NCBI GenBank assembly: GCA_027484085.1
Contig: JAIXQF010000004.1
Span: 1,022,162 to 1,086,161, forward strand
Direction of reading: 5' to 3'
DNA length: 64,000 nt
From: Actinomycetales bacterium
GTDB lineage: Bacteria; Actinomycetota; Actinomycetes; S36-B12; UBA5976
The position numbers were made by a program, and so were the translations under genes. A model generated the notes under the pieces. It saw nothing but the letters and a program-made list of their open reading frames with translations, did not search any database and was not told where the DNA came from. This document shows, piece by piece, positions 3-4,734 of the stretch (the first letter of the stretch is position 1; each line of letters opens with the position of its first letter).

Positions 3-797
3 GATCACATAATCAACGAAATCCTGGATGAAACCGAATCGCAACGTCGAGACACGCATGCCCTGCGCACTCAGGCATCCTTTATTCGAAGCGTCTGCCG
101 TCCGCTTTACACATCTTGGATTGACGAGATCGAGAGCTCGGATGAGAGTGGATTGTTGCCACGTGAATACCTTGAGCGCAAGCAACAAGAGATGATTGAC
201 TTCCCCATTAACTCCGAGTCCGACCTTAGGGATTGGCTTGGCTACATGTTCGATCGCTTCGACAATCTTTCAGATGTGAAAAAGGTGTCAAGTAGGTCTC
301 AGGGTCGAATCAATTCAAGTGCCGTTCGCACCTATCGAAACGCTTGGATGACATTCACTACTCGAAACTTTGACAGCATTTGGCGCGAGATGCAGCGCCG
401 AGCTGAAAACGGAGTAACGCCAAAGAATGTCCGCGATGAGCGATTCAAGCGCCCTCGTGAGTTATCTCGGACGATTGTCCGAATGGCAAGTTCCGAAGGT
501 ATTGATTTGCATCCTGAGAAACCGCCGAAGATCACATCGGTCACAGCTACTCTTTTGGAAAATGGACCAAGTCCGATCAAGCTAACCAAGTCTTGGACCT
601 CTGCGAAGTTTGCTCGCAATGAGATCCAAGCCTGGTTAGCTGATGCGGATGCGATTCTTGGCAAGAACCGAATAGATGTCGCAAGGCTTGATGTAACAGG
701 CACTTCCGGACATGATCAGTTCTTGCTTGAAGAAGCGGAGTTACCCAGCATTTCTCTAATGTTTATTCGTTACCTTGATGCCAAGGCCAAGTATTAG
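3..797 (+). CDS. 5'-truncated protein of unknown function
   Basis: The reading frame is open from base 3 with no stop, so the gene begins upstream of the window; the TTG at 153 is inside the gene and is not a good start. The visible 264 residues are hydrophilic and rich in charged residues, with no signal peptide or membrane segment. I do not recognise a family. The basic middle (around window bases 300-480) could bind nucleic acid, but that is a guess. Its stop overlaps by 4 bases the stop of the convergent phosphatase gene. Codon use looks like that of its neighbours. Confidence 0.75.
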   Translation, partial: DHIINEILDETESQRRDTHALRTQASFIRSVCRPLYTSWIDEIESSDESGLLPREYLERKQQEMIDFPINSESDLRDWLGYMFDRFDNLSDVKKVSSRSQGRINSSAVRTYRNAWMTFTTRNFDSIWREMQRRAENGVTPKNVRDERFKRPRELSRTIVRMASSEGIDLHPEKPPKITSVTATLLENGPSPIKLTKSWTSAKFARNEIQAWLADADAILGKNRIDVARLDVTGTSGHDQFLLEEAELPSISLMFIRYLDAKAKY

Positions 798-1336
798 GCC
801 GCAGAGTTTGAGGACTTATTCTCAACAAACTCTGGAGCCCGCTCCACAAGCCAAGTCACGAAGTGGTTGTTGAACAACGCCATTTTTGAACGCTGCTTTC
901 GGATCAACTTAATCGCATCTGCCGGTTGGTAGCCCGCGTGCATCAAAGTCAGCGCAGTTACCAGGCCAGATCGATTAAGGCCTGCTTGGCAGCGAATCAA
1001 GACTTGCTCACCGGCGTTCCAGCGATCAAATGCCCACTTGGATACGCGCAATAGTCGATCAGTATCGAAATGTTCAACGGAAGCATCAGCAAATCCGTAA
1101 CGCATCTCTTCAACTCCCCAACCCATTGGCTGGGCAAAGGAATACAGCGTCACAACTGCGTCGAATTGGCAGGAATCACCTAGGCCGGGTAGCGGCATTG
1201 AATAATTTACCGTTGCGTCGTCAGCCGTCCCACCCATGAAAAGTCCAGGCAGGATTTCAGCAAACAGTTCGGTTGGGTACTGGTCATCTGAATGCCAGCG
1301 TGGTGCGAACAGGTTATTTATTGGGGTTTTACTCAT
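794..1336 (-). CDS. dual-specificity/tyrosine phosphatase-like protein (paralogue 1)
   Basis: A 180-residue protein with the cysteine-phosphatase signature C-x5-R-S, seen as IRCQAGLNRSGLV near residue 115, followed by a typical helix (LMHAGYQPADAIKLIRKQRS). An upstream Asp that could act as general acid lies in the FDTD stretch. The family removes phosphate from Tyr/Ser/Thr or small phospho-compounds; the substrate is unknown. The start is supported by AGGAG about 11 bases upstream. It is clearly paralogous to the next gene (1413-1928), sharing the GGTAD and AGLNRS blocks, and has its own upstream region (1337-1412) holding the repeated element AAAAATGTCATG. Confidence 0.85.
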   Translation of the reverse strand: MSKTPINNLFAPRWHSDDQYPTELFAEILPGLFMGGTADDATVNYSMPLPGLGDSCQFDAVVTLYSFAQPMGWGVEEMRYGFADASVEHFDTDRLLRVSKWAFDRWNAGEQVLIRCQAGLNRSGLVTALTLMHAGYQPADAIKLIRKQRSKMALFNNHFVTWLVERAPEFVENKSSNSAA

Positions 1337-1412
1337 GGTTTTGGGTTTCTCCTTTAGGTGCGAGTAATTGGTTTAGTGAGAATAAAGCATGGGCATGACA
1401 TTTTTGCCCTAG

Positions 1413-1928
1413 TTATGATCCGCCGAATAGCCAATCAGAAGTATCAAGAGCAAGAAGCCAGCGTTCAAACTCTGGATTATGCATTACCCAAACACTTCGC
1501 TTAGCTCGAATCAGTTCAATTGCATCGTTAGCGGTGTAACCGGCAGCAATCATTACAAGAGTCACCACTAACGCGGAGCGATTAAGGCCAGCTAAACAAC
1601 GAACCAAGATTCGTTTTCCGGCTTGCCAATCGGCATACACATTGGCAACCAAGAAACGTAGGTCATCTACATCAAAGTCAGCGACTTCCCCATCGTGAAA
1701 TGCTTGGCGTAACTCACGAACTTGCCAATCAACCGGATTACTCCAGGCATGCAGTGTCACGACGGTGTCGAACGAGTCTTTTGTAATCTGTGGCTCGATT
1801 TCGGGCATGCCAATCATGTCGTTGTCTGCGGTGCCGCCAATCCAAAGTCTTGGCAGGACTTCAGTCCAAAGATCTTTAGGTGTGAAATCTTCGTAGTTAT
1901 GATCCTCAAACATTGGACGATCATTCAT
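1413..1928 (-). CDS. dual-specificity/tyrosine phosphatase-like protein (paralogue 2)
   Basis: A 171-residue paralogue of the preceding phosphatase. It keeps the active-site loop VRCLAGLNRSALV (C-x5-R-S), the GGTAD block near residue 33 and the C-terminal RAKRS helix. The start ATG shares one base with the stop of the upstream deacetylase gene (TAATG), so the two are almost certainly translationally coupled. Co-expression of a phosphatase with a deacetylase-like enzyme suggests joint control of protein modification or of a small-molecule pathway; the target is not visible in the sequence. Confidence 0.85.
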   Translation of the reverse strand: MNDRPMFEDHNYEDFTPKDLWTEVLPRLWIGGTADNDMIGMPEIEPQITKDSFDTVVTLHAWSNPVDWQVRELRQAFHDGEVADFDVDDLRFLVANVYADWQAGKRILVRCLAGLNRSALVVTLVMIAAGYTANDAIELIRAKRSVWVMHNPEFERWLLALDTSDWLFGGS

Positions 1929-2923
1929 TAGCTCACCACCGATCCGCTAACCAATCCAGTTGCAGCGCTCAACCACATCTGTGGTGTGTAGTTATCTGGT
2001 TCGTAACCACCAGCGCCACCCATCAGGATCGGCAGACTTGGAAAGCTCTCGCGCACCTTACTCATCGCAGCGAACATGCCTTCGGTCTCATAGTTCAAAC
2101 GAGCCAGCGGATCTTCGCGATGGCCATCAGCGCCGGCGGCAACAAAGATCAGGTCTGGCGCAAATTCCGTTGCAAGTTCGATAAATCTCTCGACAGCTGC
2201 CAGTAGTTCAGCATCGCCGGCACCGCCAGCTAGTCCTTCATTGAAAACCAGTTTCTCCGGAATTTCGTGCGCTCCAGTGCCTGGGAAGATTCCCAGTTGA
2301 TGCACGGAAAATGTCAAGATGTTTGGATCATCACTGCATAAGTTCTCAGTGCCATCGCCATGATGTGCATCAACATCCAGGATTGCAACTTTCAAACCCT
2401 TGGACACAGCGACCTTTGCAGCGATTGCAAAGTCGGCAAACACACAAAATCCCGAAGAATGATCGAATTGAGCGTGATGCTTGGCGCCCGGTAAGTGAAT
2501 GGCAGTTAGCGTTTCGCCATTGAGCAAAGCGTCCAGCGCAACCAATGTTCCACCTGCAAAAGTCTGTGCCAGGAGGGCAAGATCTTCGTTTTGGTTATCC
2601 CACTCATCCGTTACCCAGTCTTCGGTAACTTCTTCTACATAGTTCAGTTCATGAACTAAAGTCAACTCTTCAATGGTCGCTAGCCGTGGCGCAACAATCG
2701 AGAGCTTGTCACCAAAGTGGTTCTGCAACTGGCTTAGGCCATTGCTGAATCGGCGGCCTCTAGTGACCGTTAAGTTCCAGTTGTTATAGGAATCATCATG
2801 AATGATTACAGGATTAGTTGTTGTTGCTGACTTGATTTGGGCCACAGCGTTACCTCTTTTCTGAATACCTGCTGCGACCGGGTGCCTAGCAAGTTCGAGA
2901 AAGTTAACAGCCCAACATGACAT
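1928..2923 (-). CDS. histone deacetylase-like amidohydrolase
   Basis: A 331-residue protein of the HDAC/acetoin utilisation/acetylpolyamine amidohydrolase superfamily. Family signatures are visible: GAKHHA (paired histidines), DVDAHHGDGTE (zinc-binding Asp and His), FSVHQ, and AGADGHREDPL near the C-terminus (second zinc Asp). These enzymes are Zn-dependent and hydrolyse acetyl-amide bonds on lysines or polyamines. The start is firm: GAGGTGA lies 4-5 bases upstream of the ATG. It is the first gene of a two-gene operon with the phosphatase at 1413-1928 and is transcribed divergently from the vWA gene. The N-terminal 35 residues are not typical of the family. Confidence 0.85.
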   Translation of the reverse strand: MSCWAVNFLELARHPVAAGIQKRGNAVAQIKSATTTNPVIIHDDSYNNWNLTVTRGRRFSNGLSQLQNHFGDKLSIVAPRLATIEELTLVHELNYVEEVTEDWVTDEWDNQNEDLALLAQTFAGGTLVALDALLNGETLTAIHLPGAKHHAQFDHSSGFCVFADFAIAAKVAVSKGLKVAILDVDAHHGDGTENLCSDDPNILTFSVHQLGIFPGTGAHEIPEKLVFNEGLAGGAGDAELLAAVERFIELATEFAPDLIFVAAGADGHREDPLARLNYETEGMFAAMSKVRESFPSLPILMGGAGGYEPDNYTPQMWLSAATGLVSGSVVS

Positions 2924-3049
2924 TTCTTCACCTCAGATCATTCAGCTCAAGAGTGTGGCCTATTTACAACAGGTATTTTCGAGCACGCTAAAAATGTCAT
3001 GGTCGCGAGGTACCTTGAAACTCCCCAACAGAAAAGGAGTAAGTCCCCC
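2924..3049. promoter_or_regulatory. divergent intergenic region with repeated AAAAATGTCATG element
   Basis: This 126-base region must hold the promoters for the deacetylase (minus) and vWA (plus) genes. At 2990-3001 it carries the 12-mer AAAAATGTCATG, which recurs exactly on the minus strand at 1405-1394 upstream of the first phosphatase gene. A shorter form, AAAATGTCA, is at 4882-4890 before the GIY-YIG gene. From the ATG at 2994 a 19-codon open frame runs to a TGA that overlaps the vWA start (ATGA). A ribosome-binding site AAAGGAG lies at 3033-3039. Whether the element is an operator or a leader-peptide start cannot be decided from sequence alone. Confidence 0.45.
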
Positions 3050-3667
3050 ATGACAAACAGCAACTACACCCACCTTGCACTTGTCGTTGATCGTTCCGGA
3101 TCAATGGCTGACATTAAAGACGATGCCCAAGGCGGCATCAATACCCTCATCGCTGAGCAGTTCGCCGAAGAAGGTCAGCTGACCGTAACTCTTTCTGAGT
3201 TCGACGATCATTTCAATGACGTAGTTCGAATGAGCGGCAAGCCATTTGCCTACAAGCTATCCCCACGTGGCAGCACTGCCCTGCTTGATGCTGTTGGCAA
3301 GGAAATCACTCGAACCGCTCAGGAACTGGATGCTCTGCCTAAGGCACTTCGACCAAGCAAAGTTCTCTTTGTTGTCGTCACCGACGGTCAAGAAAACGCC
3401 AGCAATGAGTTCACGCTCAAGGCTGTCAAAGACAGCATCGAAACCCAGCGCAAAGACCATGGCTGGACTTTCCAGTTCATCGGTGCTGAAGAAGCTGCCT
3501 GGCAAGGTCGCCAGATGGGTATGAACTCTGCTTCATTTAGTCGATCAGATAAAGGTCAACGCGGAGCATACAAATCCATGAATGACTCGATGAAGACCTT
3601 CCGAAAGCAGCCTGGTCAAGGCATTGGCTTTACGATGCCGGATCAAATTCCGGACGACGAAGACTAA
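3050..3667 (+). CDS. von Willebrand factor A domain protein (MIDAS type)
   Basis: A cytoplasmic 205-residue vWA protein with no signal peptide or membrane segment. The metal-ion-dependent adhesion site is intact: DRSGSM (DxSxS) near residue 16, the Thr in GSTALLDAVG, and the Asp in VVTDGQE. Such domains bind partner proteins through Mg2+, as in TerY-like and chelatase-associated proteins. The ATG at 3050 is preferred over the ATG at 2999 because AGGAG lies 10 bases before it and the domain starts at once. It is followed by a strong hairpin and five small genes on the same strand, so the small proteins are candidate partners. Divergent from the deacetylase-phosphatase operon. Confidence 0.85.
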   Translation: MTNSNYTHLALVVDRSGSMADIKDDAQGGINTLIAEQFAEEGQLTVTLSEFDDHFNDVVRMSGKPFAYKLSPRGSTALLDAVGKEITRTAQELDALPKALRPSKVLFVVVTDGQENASNEFTLKAVKDSIETQRKDHGWTFQFIGAEEAAWQGRQMGMNSASFSRSDKGQRGAYKSMNDSMKTFRKQPGQGIGFTMPDQIPDDED

Positions 3668-3679
3668 ATCTGTCTCAAG

Positions 3680-3720
3680 GCAAGGATTGCAGCCATTAGC
3701 CTCTTGGTTGCAATCCTTGC
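3680..3720 (+). terminator. strong hairpin after vWA gene, no T-tract
   Basis: Perfect 12-bp inverted repeat GCAAGGATTGCA / TGCAATCCTTGC (3680-3691 and 3709-3720), extended by four further pairs inside (one G-U), leaving a 9-base loop. No run of T follows, so it may act as an RNA-processing or stability element, or as a partial terminator that lowers expression of one side of the vWA/small-gene unit. Confidence 0.6.
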
Positions 3721-3764: not shown

Positions 3765-3908
3765 ATGGAAAACGAACAGTCGCCCTCTAATTCAGTATCG
3801 CAAGCAGAGCAGTGTGAGCCAGAAGCAGCTGAATCACATTTAGTCAAGCGTGGCAAGGAATACGGACTAACGCCTGAGCAAAGCCAAGCGCTGTCCCTTT
3901 ATCTCTAA
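3765..3908 (+). CDS. small protein with YGLTPxQ...LYL C-terminus (copy 1)
   Basis: A 47-residue acidic protein starting at the ATG at 3765, with AAGGAG 5 bases upstream, an excellent ribosome-binding site. The N-terminal 30 residues are polar and low in hydrophobics (probably disordered); the C-terminus is EYGLTPEQSQALSLYL. The same ending recurs in three genes downstream, although the rest of these proteins differs, so the C-terminal 16 residues are the conserved functional part. The function is unknown: possibilities are a docking peptide for the neighbouring vWA protein, a precursor peptide, or a C-terminal sorting or proteolysis tag. Confidence 0.75.
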   Translation: MENEQSPSNSVSQAEQCEPEAAESHLVKRGKEYGLTPEQSQALSLYL

Positions 3909-3951
3909 CACAAAAGAATTGCCTTAAAGCCCAACCCACACGGAGAACATA

Positions 3952-4134
3952 ATGAACAATGAAAATGAGAATTTGGTGCAAGCCTCAATTGGAGCACCCA
4001 AGCCACAAAAGGTCCACCTCGTAAAGCCACCGAAAAAGCTCAACGAGATGACCGAGGAAGAGCGCCGGGCCTGGGCGAATGCATTAGGCGAAGCGCTTAA
4101 GAAAAAGTTCCCAAAGCAGGAAGTTGAGGACTAA
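3952..4134 (+). CDS. small basic helical protein in the LYL-peptide cluster
   Basis: A 60-residue protein with a purine-rich site (GGAGA) upstream of the ATG. The C-terminal half is a likely amphipathic helix (MTEEERRAWANALGEALKKKFPK); the N-terminal half is rich in Asn, Pro and Lys. It lacks the LYL ending of its neighbours and is the only member of the cluster of this type. It lies between copies 1 and 2 of the LYL family with 2 bases to the next start, so it is probably co-transcribed. No family recognised. Confidence 0.7.
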   Translation: MNNENENLVQASIGAPKPQKVHLVKPPKKLNEMTEEERRAWANALGEALKKKFPKQEVED

Positions 4135-4136
4135 AC

Positions 4137-4307
4137 ATGTCGGATGAAACTCCAGCTGAAATCCCTGAGAACCAGCAAGAGCCTGCCACAGCCGAAGCGG
4201 AATCTAATGAAACAAAAGCAGGATCGACTGTTCCATGTACATCTGCGCGGGCCGAGCGCTACGGACTCACGCCAGAGCAGGCCGAAATGTTGGACTTGTA
4301 TCTCTAG
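4137..4307 (+). CDS. small protein with YGLTPxQ...LYL C-terminus (copy 2)
   Basis: A 56-residue protein read from the ATG at 4137, two bases after the previous stop; GAGGA at 4126-4130 can serve as its ribosome-binding site. The N-terminal 38 residues are rich in Glu, Ala, Thr and Pro and probably disordered. The ending is ERYGLTPEQAEMLDLYL, matching copies 1, 3 and 4. It contains one Cys (residue 34). Reality is supported by the conserved C-terminus and by the tight spacing. Confidence 0.72.
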   Translation: MSDETPAEIPENQQEPATAEAESNETKAGSTVPCTSARAERYGLTPEQAEMLDLYL

Positions 4308-4351
4308 AGCAACACCACGGAACAGATAACAAGCAAAGCAATGAGGTTGAA

Positions 4352-4519
4352 ATGAACAAAGAACAAGACCTAGGGCAGACCGATCCAGAGAAACCGGCAA
4401 CCAGTTCTACTGAGTCATCTGAATCGGATACTTATTCAGATGATCCAGCCTATGCAGCAATGGTCAAGCGGTATGGATTGACGCCGCAGCAGGCCAAGGA
4501 AATGAGCTTGTACCTCTAG
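4352..4519 (+). CDS. small protein with YGLTPxQ...LYL C-terminus (copy 3)
   Basis: A 55-residue protein starting MNKEQ, with GAGG 5-8 bases before the ATG at 4352. The middle is Ser/Thr/Asp/Glu-rich and probably disordered; the ending is KRYGLTPQQAKEMSLYL. Starts and upstream spacers of copies 3 and 4 resemble each other (MNKE start; CAGAT...ATGAGG leader), so these two are probably tandem duplicates. The frame can be extended upstream to an ATG at 4235, but this would overlap copy 2 and is not needed. Confidence 0.75.
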   Translation: MNKEQDLGQTDPEKPATSSTESSESDTYSDDPAYAAMVKRYGLTPQQAKEMSLYL

Positions 4520-4563
4520 CGCGACCCCAACCAGATTGAAACCAACCAGATCATGAGGAACAA

Positions 4564-4734
4564 ATGAACAAAGAAAAACACGTAAGTCAGGTAGATTCCG
4601 AGGAATTGTCGCCTGACGCTCCAGCGGCCAAGAATTTCGAGCAAAACGAGAAATCAAATCAAGAAGATCAACAAATGGCTGATGAGTACGGATGGACTCC
4701 GCAACAGGCCAAGGAATCAACGCTTTATCTATAG
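4564..4734 (+). CDS. small protein with YGWTPxQ...LYL C-terminus (copy 4)
   Basis: A 56-residue protein starting MNKEK at the ATG at 4564, with GAGGA upstream. It is the last of the cluster and ends DEYGWTPQQAKESTLYL; Leu of the motif is replaced by Trp. The N-terminal 40 residues are polar and differ from the other copies beyond the first four residues. A hairpin follows within 2 bases of the stop, which suggests this is the end of the transcript. Confidence 0.75.
   Translation: MNKEKHVSQVDSEELSPDAPAAKNFEQNEKSNQEDQQMADEYGWTPQQAKESTLYL

Follow-up and report, generated by a model that had tools for sequence, protein, structure and literature searches.

In GNAT toxin-antitoxin systems of the TacAT/AtaRT type, a small protein is encoded just upstream of the GNAT. 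Polyvalent proteins, a class known from phages and from conjugative elements, are in the proposal of Iyer et al. (2017, PMC5512222) packaged and injected, and their GNATs would modify proteins of the host after injection; we found no mention of an overlapping gene in the text of that paper, nor any description of polyvalent proteins with nested or overlapping genes in the incompletely covered open-access literature. In MuF polymorphic toxins, effector domains are fused to phage head proteins and accompanied by small linked proteins (PMC5576092), and Rac, a GNAT of phiKMV-like phages, disables the host RNA polymerase and shuts down host transcription (PMC7552054).

The window analyzed here, a 64,000-nt stretch (positions 1,022,162-1,086,161 of contig 3) of a 1.8-Mb actinobacterial genome, carries four short tandem genes that are very probably relatives of a genuine phage gene nested, out of frame, just upstream of a GNAT domain. 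The phage ORFs enclosing the nested gene are of the polyvalent class (LPD38, LPD22, ART-PolyVal, Mu F, GNAT), while the window genes are bacterial and free-standing. As in the TacAT/AtaRT type, the small protein is encoded just 5' of a GNAT, but it has no ribbon-helix-helix domain (no Pfam match), and the GNAT is part of a giant protein without a conserved separate start; neither of the marks of a type II GNAT system, a ribbon-helix-helix antitoxin and a separately translated GNAT, was thus found, and translation of the GNAT from an internal start was rejected as the start is not conserved. The orphan immunity genes that MuF toxins have in bacteria are the model that we use, by analogy, for the window copies. 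In MuF systems a C-terminal toxin is followed by a separate downstream immunity gene; here, by contrast, the GNAT occupies an internal position, and the small gene is nested within the candidate effector gene, in another frame and 5' of the effector domain. Rac, too, is a phage GNAT, one that acts on host machinery, but it is an expressed solo enzyme. No convincing match of any nested or window small protein was obtained in PHROGs, Pfam, or NCBIfam; the protein family is new, while nested phage genes as such are already known.

Table 1. Array of peptide genes and flanking features, in positions of the window
Feature	Position	Strand	Description
vWA-like gene	3050..3667	+	phrog_7371, E 3.7e-46; upstream neighbor
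Inverted repeat	3680..3720	.	16-nt arms, 94% complementary, 9-nt loop; between vWA gene and array
Peptide gene 1	3765..3908	+	47 aa, ending ..KRGKEYGLTPEQSQALSLYL (stop)
Small gene, probable companion	3952..4134	+	60 aa, motif LxxMTxEERxxWAxxL
Peptide gene 2	4137..4307	+	56 aa, ending ..RYGLTPEQAEMLDLYL (stop)
Peptide gene 3	4352..4519	+	55 aa, ending ..AMVKRYGLTPQQAKEMSLYL (stop)
Peptide gene 4	4564..4734	+	56 aa, ending ..MADEYGWTPQQAKESTLYL (stop)
Anti-phage defense island	4896-31263		NERD-UvrD, Mokosh, Druantia II, HpaII, GIY-YIG/Schlafen-type helicase

An initial annotation of the window had described four short tandem genes, each with a ribosome-binding site, an acidic, probably disordered N-terminus, and a common C-terminal motif. 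The genes are indeed where it placed them (Table 1), and reading the sequence directly we found a Shine-Dalgarno-like sequence before each (AAGGAG, GAGG, GAGG, and GAGGA for genes 1 to 4, respectively). The motif, too, is real and ends at the stop codon in all four peptides, although its spacing had been miscounted, with five residues after [AS] in the description and six in the proposed search pattern; the true form is YG[LW]TP[EQ]Q[AS]x4LYL, of which Y-G-x-T-P-x-Q and the L-Y-L at the stop are identical in all four. Over the last 16 codons of the four copies, pS was 0.79 and pN 0.27, a ratio of 0.34, compared with 0.78 and 2.65 for the same DNA in the other two frames, and so the motif is under purifying selection in the peptide frame. 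Genes 3 and 4 have their 5' end and N-terminus in common (74% over 53 nt). For the peptide, AlphaFold2 gave a low-confidence N-terminal half, in agreement with the disorder claimed for it, and two C-terminal helices (residues 32-41 and 45-54, pLDDT about 76-84) that flank the YGLTP turn. The peptide is thus predicted to combine a disordered N-terminus with a C-terminal helical hairpin, a model that lends support to the proposal of a conserved C-terminal unit of a partner-recognizing kind.

We then determined how widely the motif occurs in cellular genomes. With six residues separating Q from LYL, the pattern had no matches at all, even in the window's own genome, where the five-residue pattern matched the four copies only. 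In 43 genomes the latter pattern found, beyond the four window copies, a single copy in a congeneric genome (G004), and a reversed control pattern found none. Among 84,980 bacterial and archaeal species, a set from which the window's own records may be absent, the only occurrence of the exact motif elsewhere was on the G004 contig VFKC01000044.1, from an Actinomycetota MAG. Similarly, a profile search of 166 genomes of the order gave strong matches only to the window genes and G004; one weak match, in G005, was dropped, being unsupported when the sequence was read. A search of plasmids gave no match. Homologous C-terminal peptides, which the annotation had proposed to look for, thus exist in G004, and they also exist in phage contigs.

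The five-residue pattern matched three IMG/VR contigs, and relaxing it to YG or YD added a 119-kb contig and its near copy. Three other viral contigs obtained with the relaxed pattern (L018-L020) were chance matches, with an internal stop or no stop at the end, and tblastn of the peptide against annotated phages gave no match. The phage form of the peptide is an ORF of ~52 aa lying on the same strand, in the +1 frame, within a much longer ORF, and in the YG-type contigs it ends 69-81 nt before a GNAT acetyltransferase domain. The enclosing ORF encodes a Mu F minor head protein in L015, is 880 aa or longer in L016, and exceeds 3,800 aa in L024; the nested start sites are alike, with GGAG or AGGGAG a few bases upstream of ATG or TTG. 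The domain directly downstream in the main frame was modeled by AlphaFold2 with a pLDDT of 91, and its top Foldseek matches in the PDB were all GNATs. On sequence grounds, membership of the YG subfamily is secure for the window, G004, L015, L016, L024, and L055. The phage members scored E values of 1e-22 to 1e-28 against the whole-order profile, but are themselves rows of it; L055, in turn, was reached independently via the GNAT domain and agrees with the YG peptides in length, place, and ending. L024 and Actinomycetia phage DSL-LC01 have portal proteins with 69% identity, and the L015 portal protein is closest to those of Arthrobacter phages, which is consistent with actinobacterial hosts. 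DSL-LC01 itself showed neither the nested peptide nor the GNAT in the 29 kb read.

An alignment of the GNAT domain, used as a query against viral contigs, yielded 80 loci. In 72 of them a +1 ORF, 30 codons or longer, ended 40-125 nt before the GNAT (47 unique sequences), while comparable +2 ORFs were almost absent. Such ORFs could in principle be by-products of main-frame constraint, with only the bacterial ORFs being real, an explanation that we consider highly improbable. It draws on the fact that many loci were singly nonsignificant when codons were shuffled with the main protein kept (15 of 39 reached p<=0.05); over all loci, the +1 ORFs were longer than expected (combined Fisher p 1e-11), with a p of 1 for +2. 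Against it stands the synonymous constraint in the overlap. In 13 separate pairs of relatives, synonymous changes per codon came to 0.077 in the overlap, below the values for the GNAT part (0.168; Fisher p 1.7e-9, the difference having this sign in 12 of the 13 pairs) and the upstream part (0.132; p 6e-5), and the balance of first- and third-position changes in the overlap was shifted as a second coding frame predicts (p 2e-8). Moreover, the nested ORFs have consistent Shine-Dalgarno and start sites, L015 and L016 agree in 19 of 53 codons in the nested frame versus 10 of 53 in the main frame, and G004 holds a clean insert of just the nested gene (see below). The nested ORFs therefore show the marks of overprinted genes, namely, a start site of their own, another frame, and synonymous constraint.

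A reverse search, seeded solely with the nested subfamily ..NPGLTR.EA.EMAE.FGF, yielded 67 loci. Each of the 40 that we inspected had the +1 ORF about 30 codons before a GNAT, and none held a free-standing phage copy of the peptide. The pair of peptide and GNAT was kept even where the upstream protein is unrelated (L052/L055/L056 and L070/L081). No such peptide preceded the standalone phage GNAT relatives that we looked at. The linked GNAT domain has distant relatives among the early-gene GNATs of certain Pseudomonas phages. Two larger nested subfamilies, NPGLTR and SGLS, were compared with YG by hhalign: NPGLTR gave an E of 0.0017 (probability 15%, permutation p 0.009), and SGLS an E of 6e-5 (probability 65%, permutation p 0.005); a plain HMM search found no significant link from YG to either. 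From the shared position and frame together with these modest profile scores, NPGLTR and SGLS are probably homologous to YG, whereas the Microbacterium and GMSD nested types are positional analogues only. A conserved gene would have gone unseen across dozens of phage lineages, since ORFs nested in longer ones are omitted by gene callers. Being bound so strictly to a single effector domain, in proteins that are probably injected, this gene offers a direct handle on effector control.

A +1 ORF at the same place occurs in the records of Microbacterium phages UtzChips, Caron, and Barnstormer and of Limnohabitans phage DC33, and in none of them is it annotated as a gene. In the three Microbacterium phages (L036, L037, and L045) it reads MALPITEEERLAFLRRQEPTATPEEL..AAIL[TS]GW, has an AAAGG signal, and lies inside the minor capsid gene, just upstream of the GNAT domain. 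DC33 (L022, PQ492659.1) is filed under Inoviridae though it is 39 kb long and has a 9.4-kb ORF with a tailed-phage-like GNAT domain, and the placement looks wrong.

Exchange between phage and host could be followed most closely in G004. This genome and its sister G012 have a locus in common, with a companion gene, a second small gene, and an HD-domain gene; in G012 (L200) it has no peptide, and in G004 (L010) the peptide sits between the small gene, of 56-58 aa, and the HD-domain gene. Over 174 nt the extra DNA of G004 has 79% identity to phage L016, a similarity that begins at the Shine-Dalgarno sequence GGAGAACCAA and stops four bases past the stop codon, and the phage main frame is broken by a stop within the insert. 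These bounds and the main-frame stop indicate that the unit transferred or kept was precisely the nested gene together with its own signal for translation. The sequence comparison thus shows that, in this genus, at least one chromosomal copy is an insert cleanly confined to the nested gene and its own ribosome-binding site. For the window copies, 23 C-terminal residues were matched against phages and against one another. Gene 1 was closest to the nested peptide of L015 (16/23; best host copy, 12/23), gene 3 to that of L016 (19/23 versus 13/23), and gene 4 to that of L024 by a margin of one residue (14/23 versus 13/23), while for gene 2 no one phage peptide clearly stood out; host copies matched one another in at most 13/23. 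The simplest reading of these comparisons is that the array consists of several related versions partly exchanged with phages, plus local duplication; the direction of transfer is one that we infer.

How might these observations be joined? We tentatively favor an explanation, to which we give somewhat less than an even chance, in which the window genes are relatives of the nested phage gene, the phage peptide restrains the GNAT effector, and the host copies are captured immunity proteins. The disordered N-terminus would tether the C-terminal helical hairpin, and the hairpin would bind and restrain the GNAT effector translated from the same phage mRNA as the peptide. The GNAT would in this way do no harm in the producing cell and would become active only once injected into the next host; the tandem bacterial copies would then be captured immunity proteins with which the bacterium counters the acetyltransferases of incoming phages. 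The inhibitor and immunity mechanism taken separately is putative and similarly tentative. For captured immunity speak the several copies matching different phage versions and the position of the array beside a defense island. Against the inhibitor reading count the standalone phage GNAT relatives looked at, which no such peptide precedes, and the 43 genomes of the host's family, in which no GNAT domain was found by a search that had no positive control. The more general proposition, that phages with injected polyvalent proteins hide a GNAT inhibitor out of frame and that freshwater actinobacteria have captured its versions as a tandem immunity repertoire by a defense island, is doubtful. In the bacterial array there is a testable example of hosts keeping pieces of a phage control system, and if inhibition holds true, this would be a new effector/immunity arrangement with one partner inside the other's gene.

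The main rival assigns the nested protein to the virion, as a chaperone or adaptor that folds the polyvalent or MuF protein or loads it into the head; the bacterial copies would then be domesticated leftovers or would interfere with phage assembly. The linkage to the GNAT could instead reflect such a packaging or folding role, the enclosing ORFs carry the polyvalent domains LPD38, LPD22, and ART-PolyVal and also Phage_Mu_F (L015), and the nested protein would be made simultaneously with the virion protein because it is encoded within a virion-type gene. However, the peptide tracks the GNAT and not the rest of the protein, being retained with an unrelated upstream part, and one would be less likely to expect that hosts had captured several versions of the bare gene, for which reasons we regard this role as unlikely.

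Downstream of the array, the NERD-UvrD helicase gene lies 1.3 kb away and is followed by Mokosh (MkoB, MkoA), Druantia II (DruM, DruK, DruE, DruF), and HpaII restriction-modification. This neighborhood fits the captured-immunity reading, but it also fits an independent phage effector or anti-defense peptide whose hairpin binds a host factor, with the proximity to the GNAT a frozen accident of a traveling module and the host copies decoys or domesticated regulators. That bacterial members exist without a GNAT agrees with such a peptide as well. We nevertheless hold it to be distinctly unlikely, since every peptide-found locus inspected was linked to a GNAT and no copy stood free in a phage.

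Upstream, in addition to the genes of Table 1, the window has two dual-specificity-phosphatase-like genes and an HDAC-like gene, which with the vWA gene span positions 794-3667. The vWA gene lies immediately 5' of the array, and the initial annotation had accordingly suggested that the peptides are ligands of the vWA protein, with a precursor-peptide core or a degradation signal as the other options. There is very little to recommend this set beyond that adjacency. Homologs of the vWA protein (phrog_7371) occur in many actinophages, G018 and G012 have the vWA gene and no peptide, G004 has the peptide and no vWA gene, and none was found in the phage records carrying the peptide, some of which are fragments; the phage relatives of the peptide are tied to the GNAT instead. 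An inverted repeat, not a T-tailed terminator in a terminator scan, separates the vWA gene from gene 1, and the vWA gene probably stands outside the peptide unit. A peptide-maturation substrate is not supported by the neighbors of the array, which are vWA, HDAC-like, phosphatase, nuclease, and helicase genes, with no maturation or export genes adjoining it. A degradation signal is a poor fit, for the ORFs are whole genes with start sites of their own.

The small gene embedded between peptide genes 1 and 2 had been called unrelated. It is real, but its sequence makes it probably a companion of the peptide genes, as a diverged relative adjoins the peptide gene in G004 (15/37 identical, pair E 5e-7); further relatives occur in G006, G012, and G016. 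In G006, one protein (L202:948-1475, minus strand) has a companion-like segment, SLATMSEEEIMQWAKGL, and the end ..EYGMNPSSNSVIEELRLYL, and resembles a fusion of the companion with a peptide tail, the tail match being nonsignificant in an HMM search. A phosphatase/HDAC/vWA-type set similar to that of the window, together with MoxR-like and DUF2201 genes, is found in G018 (L047), and since it has no peptide there, the peptides are no fixed part of the cluster. In G078 (L208), a phosphatase gene and a vWA gene adjoin a weak relative of the companion gene.
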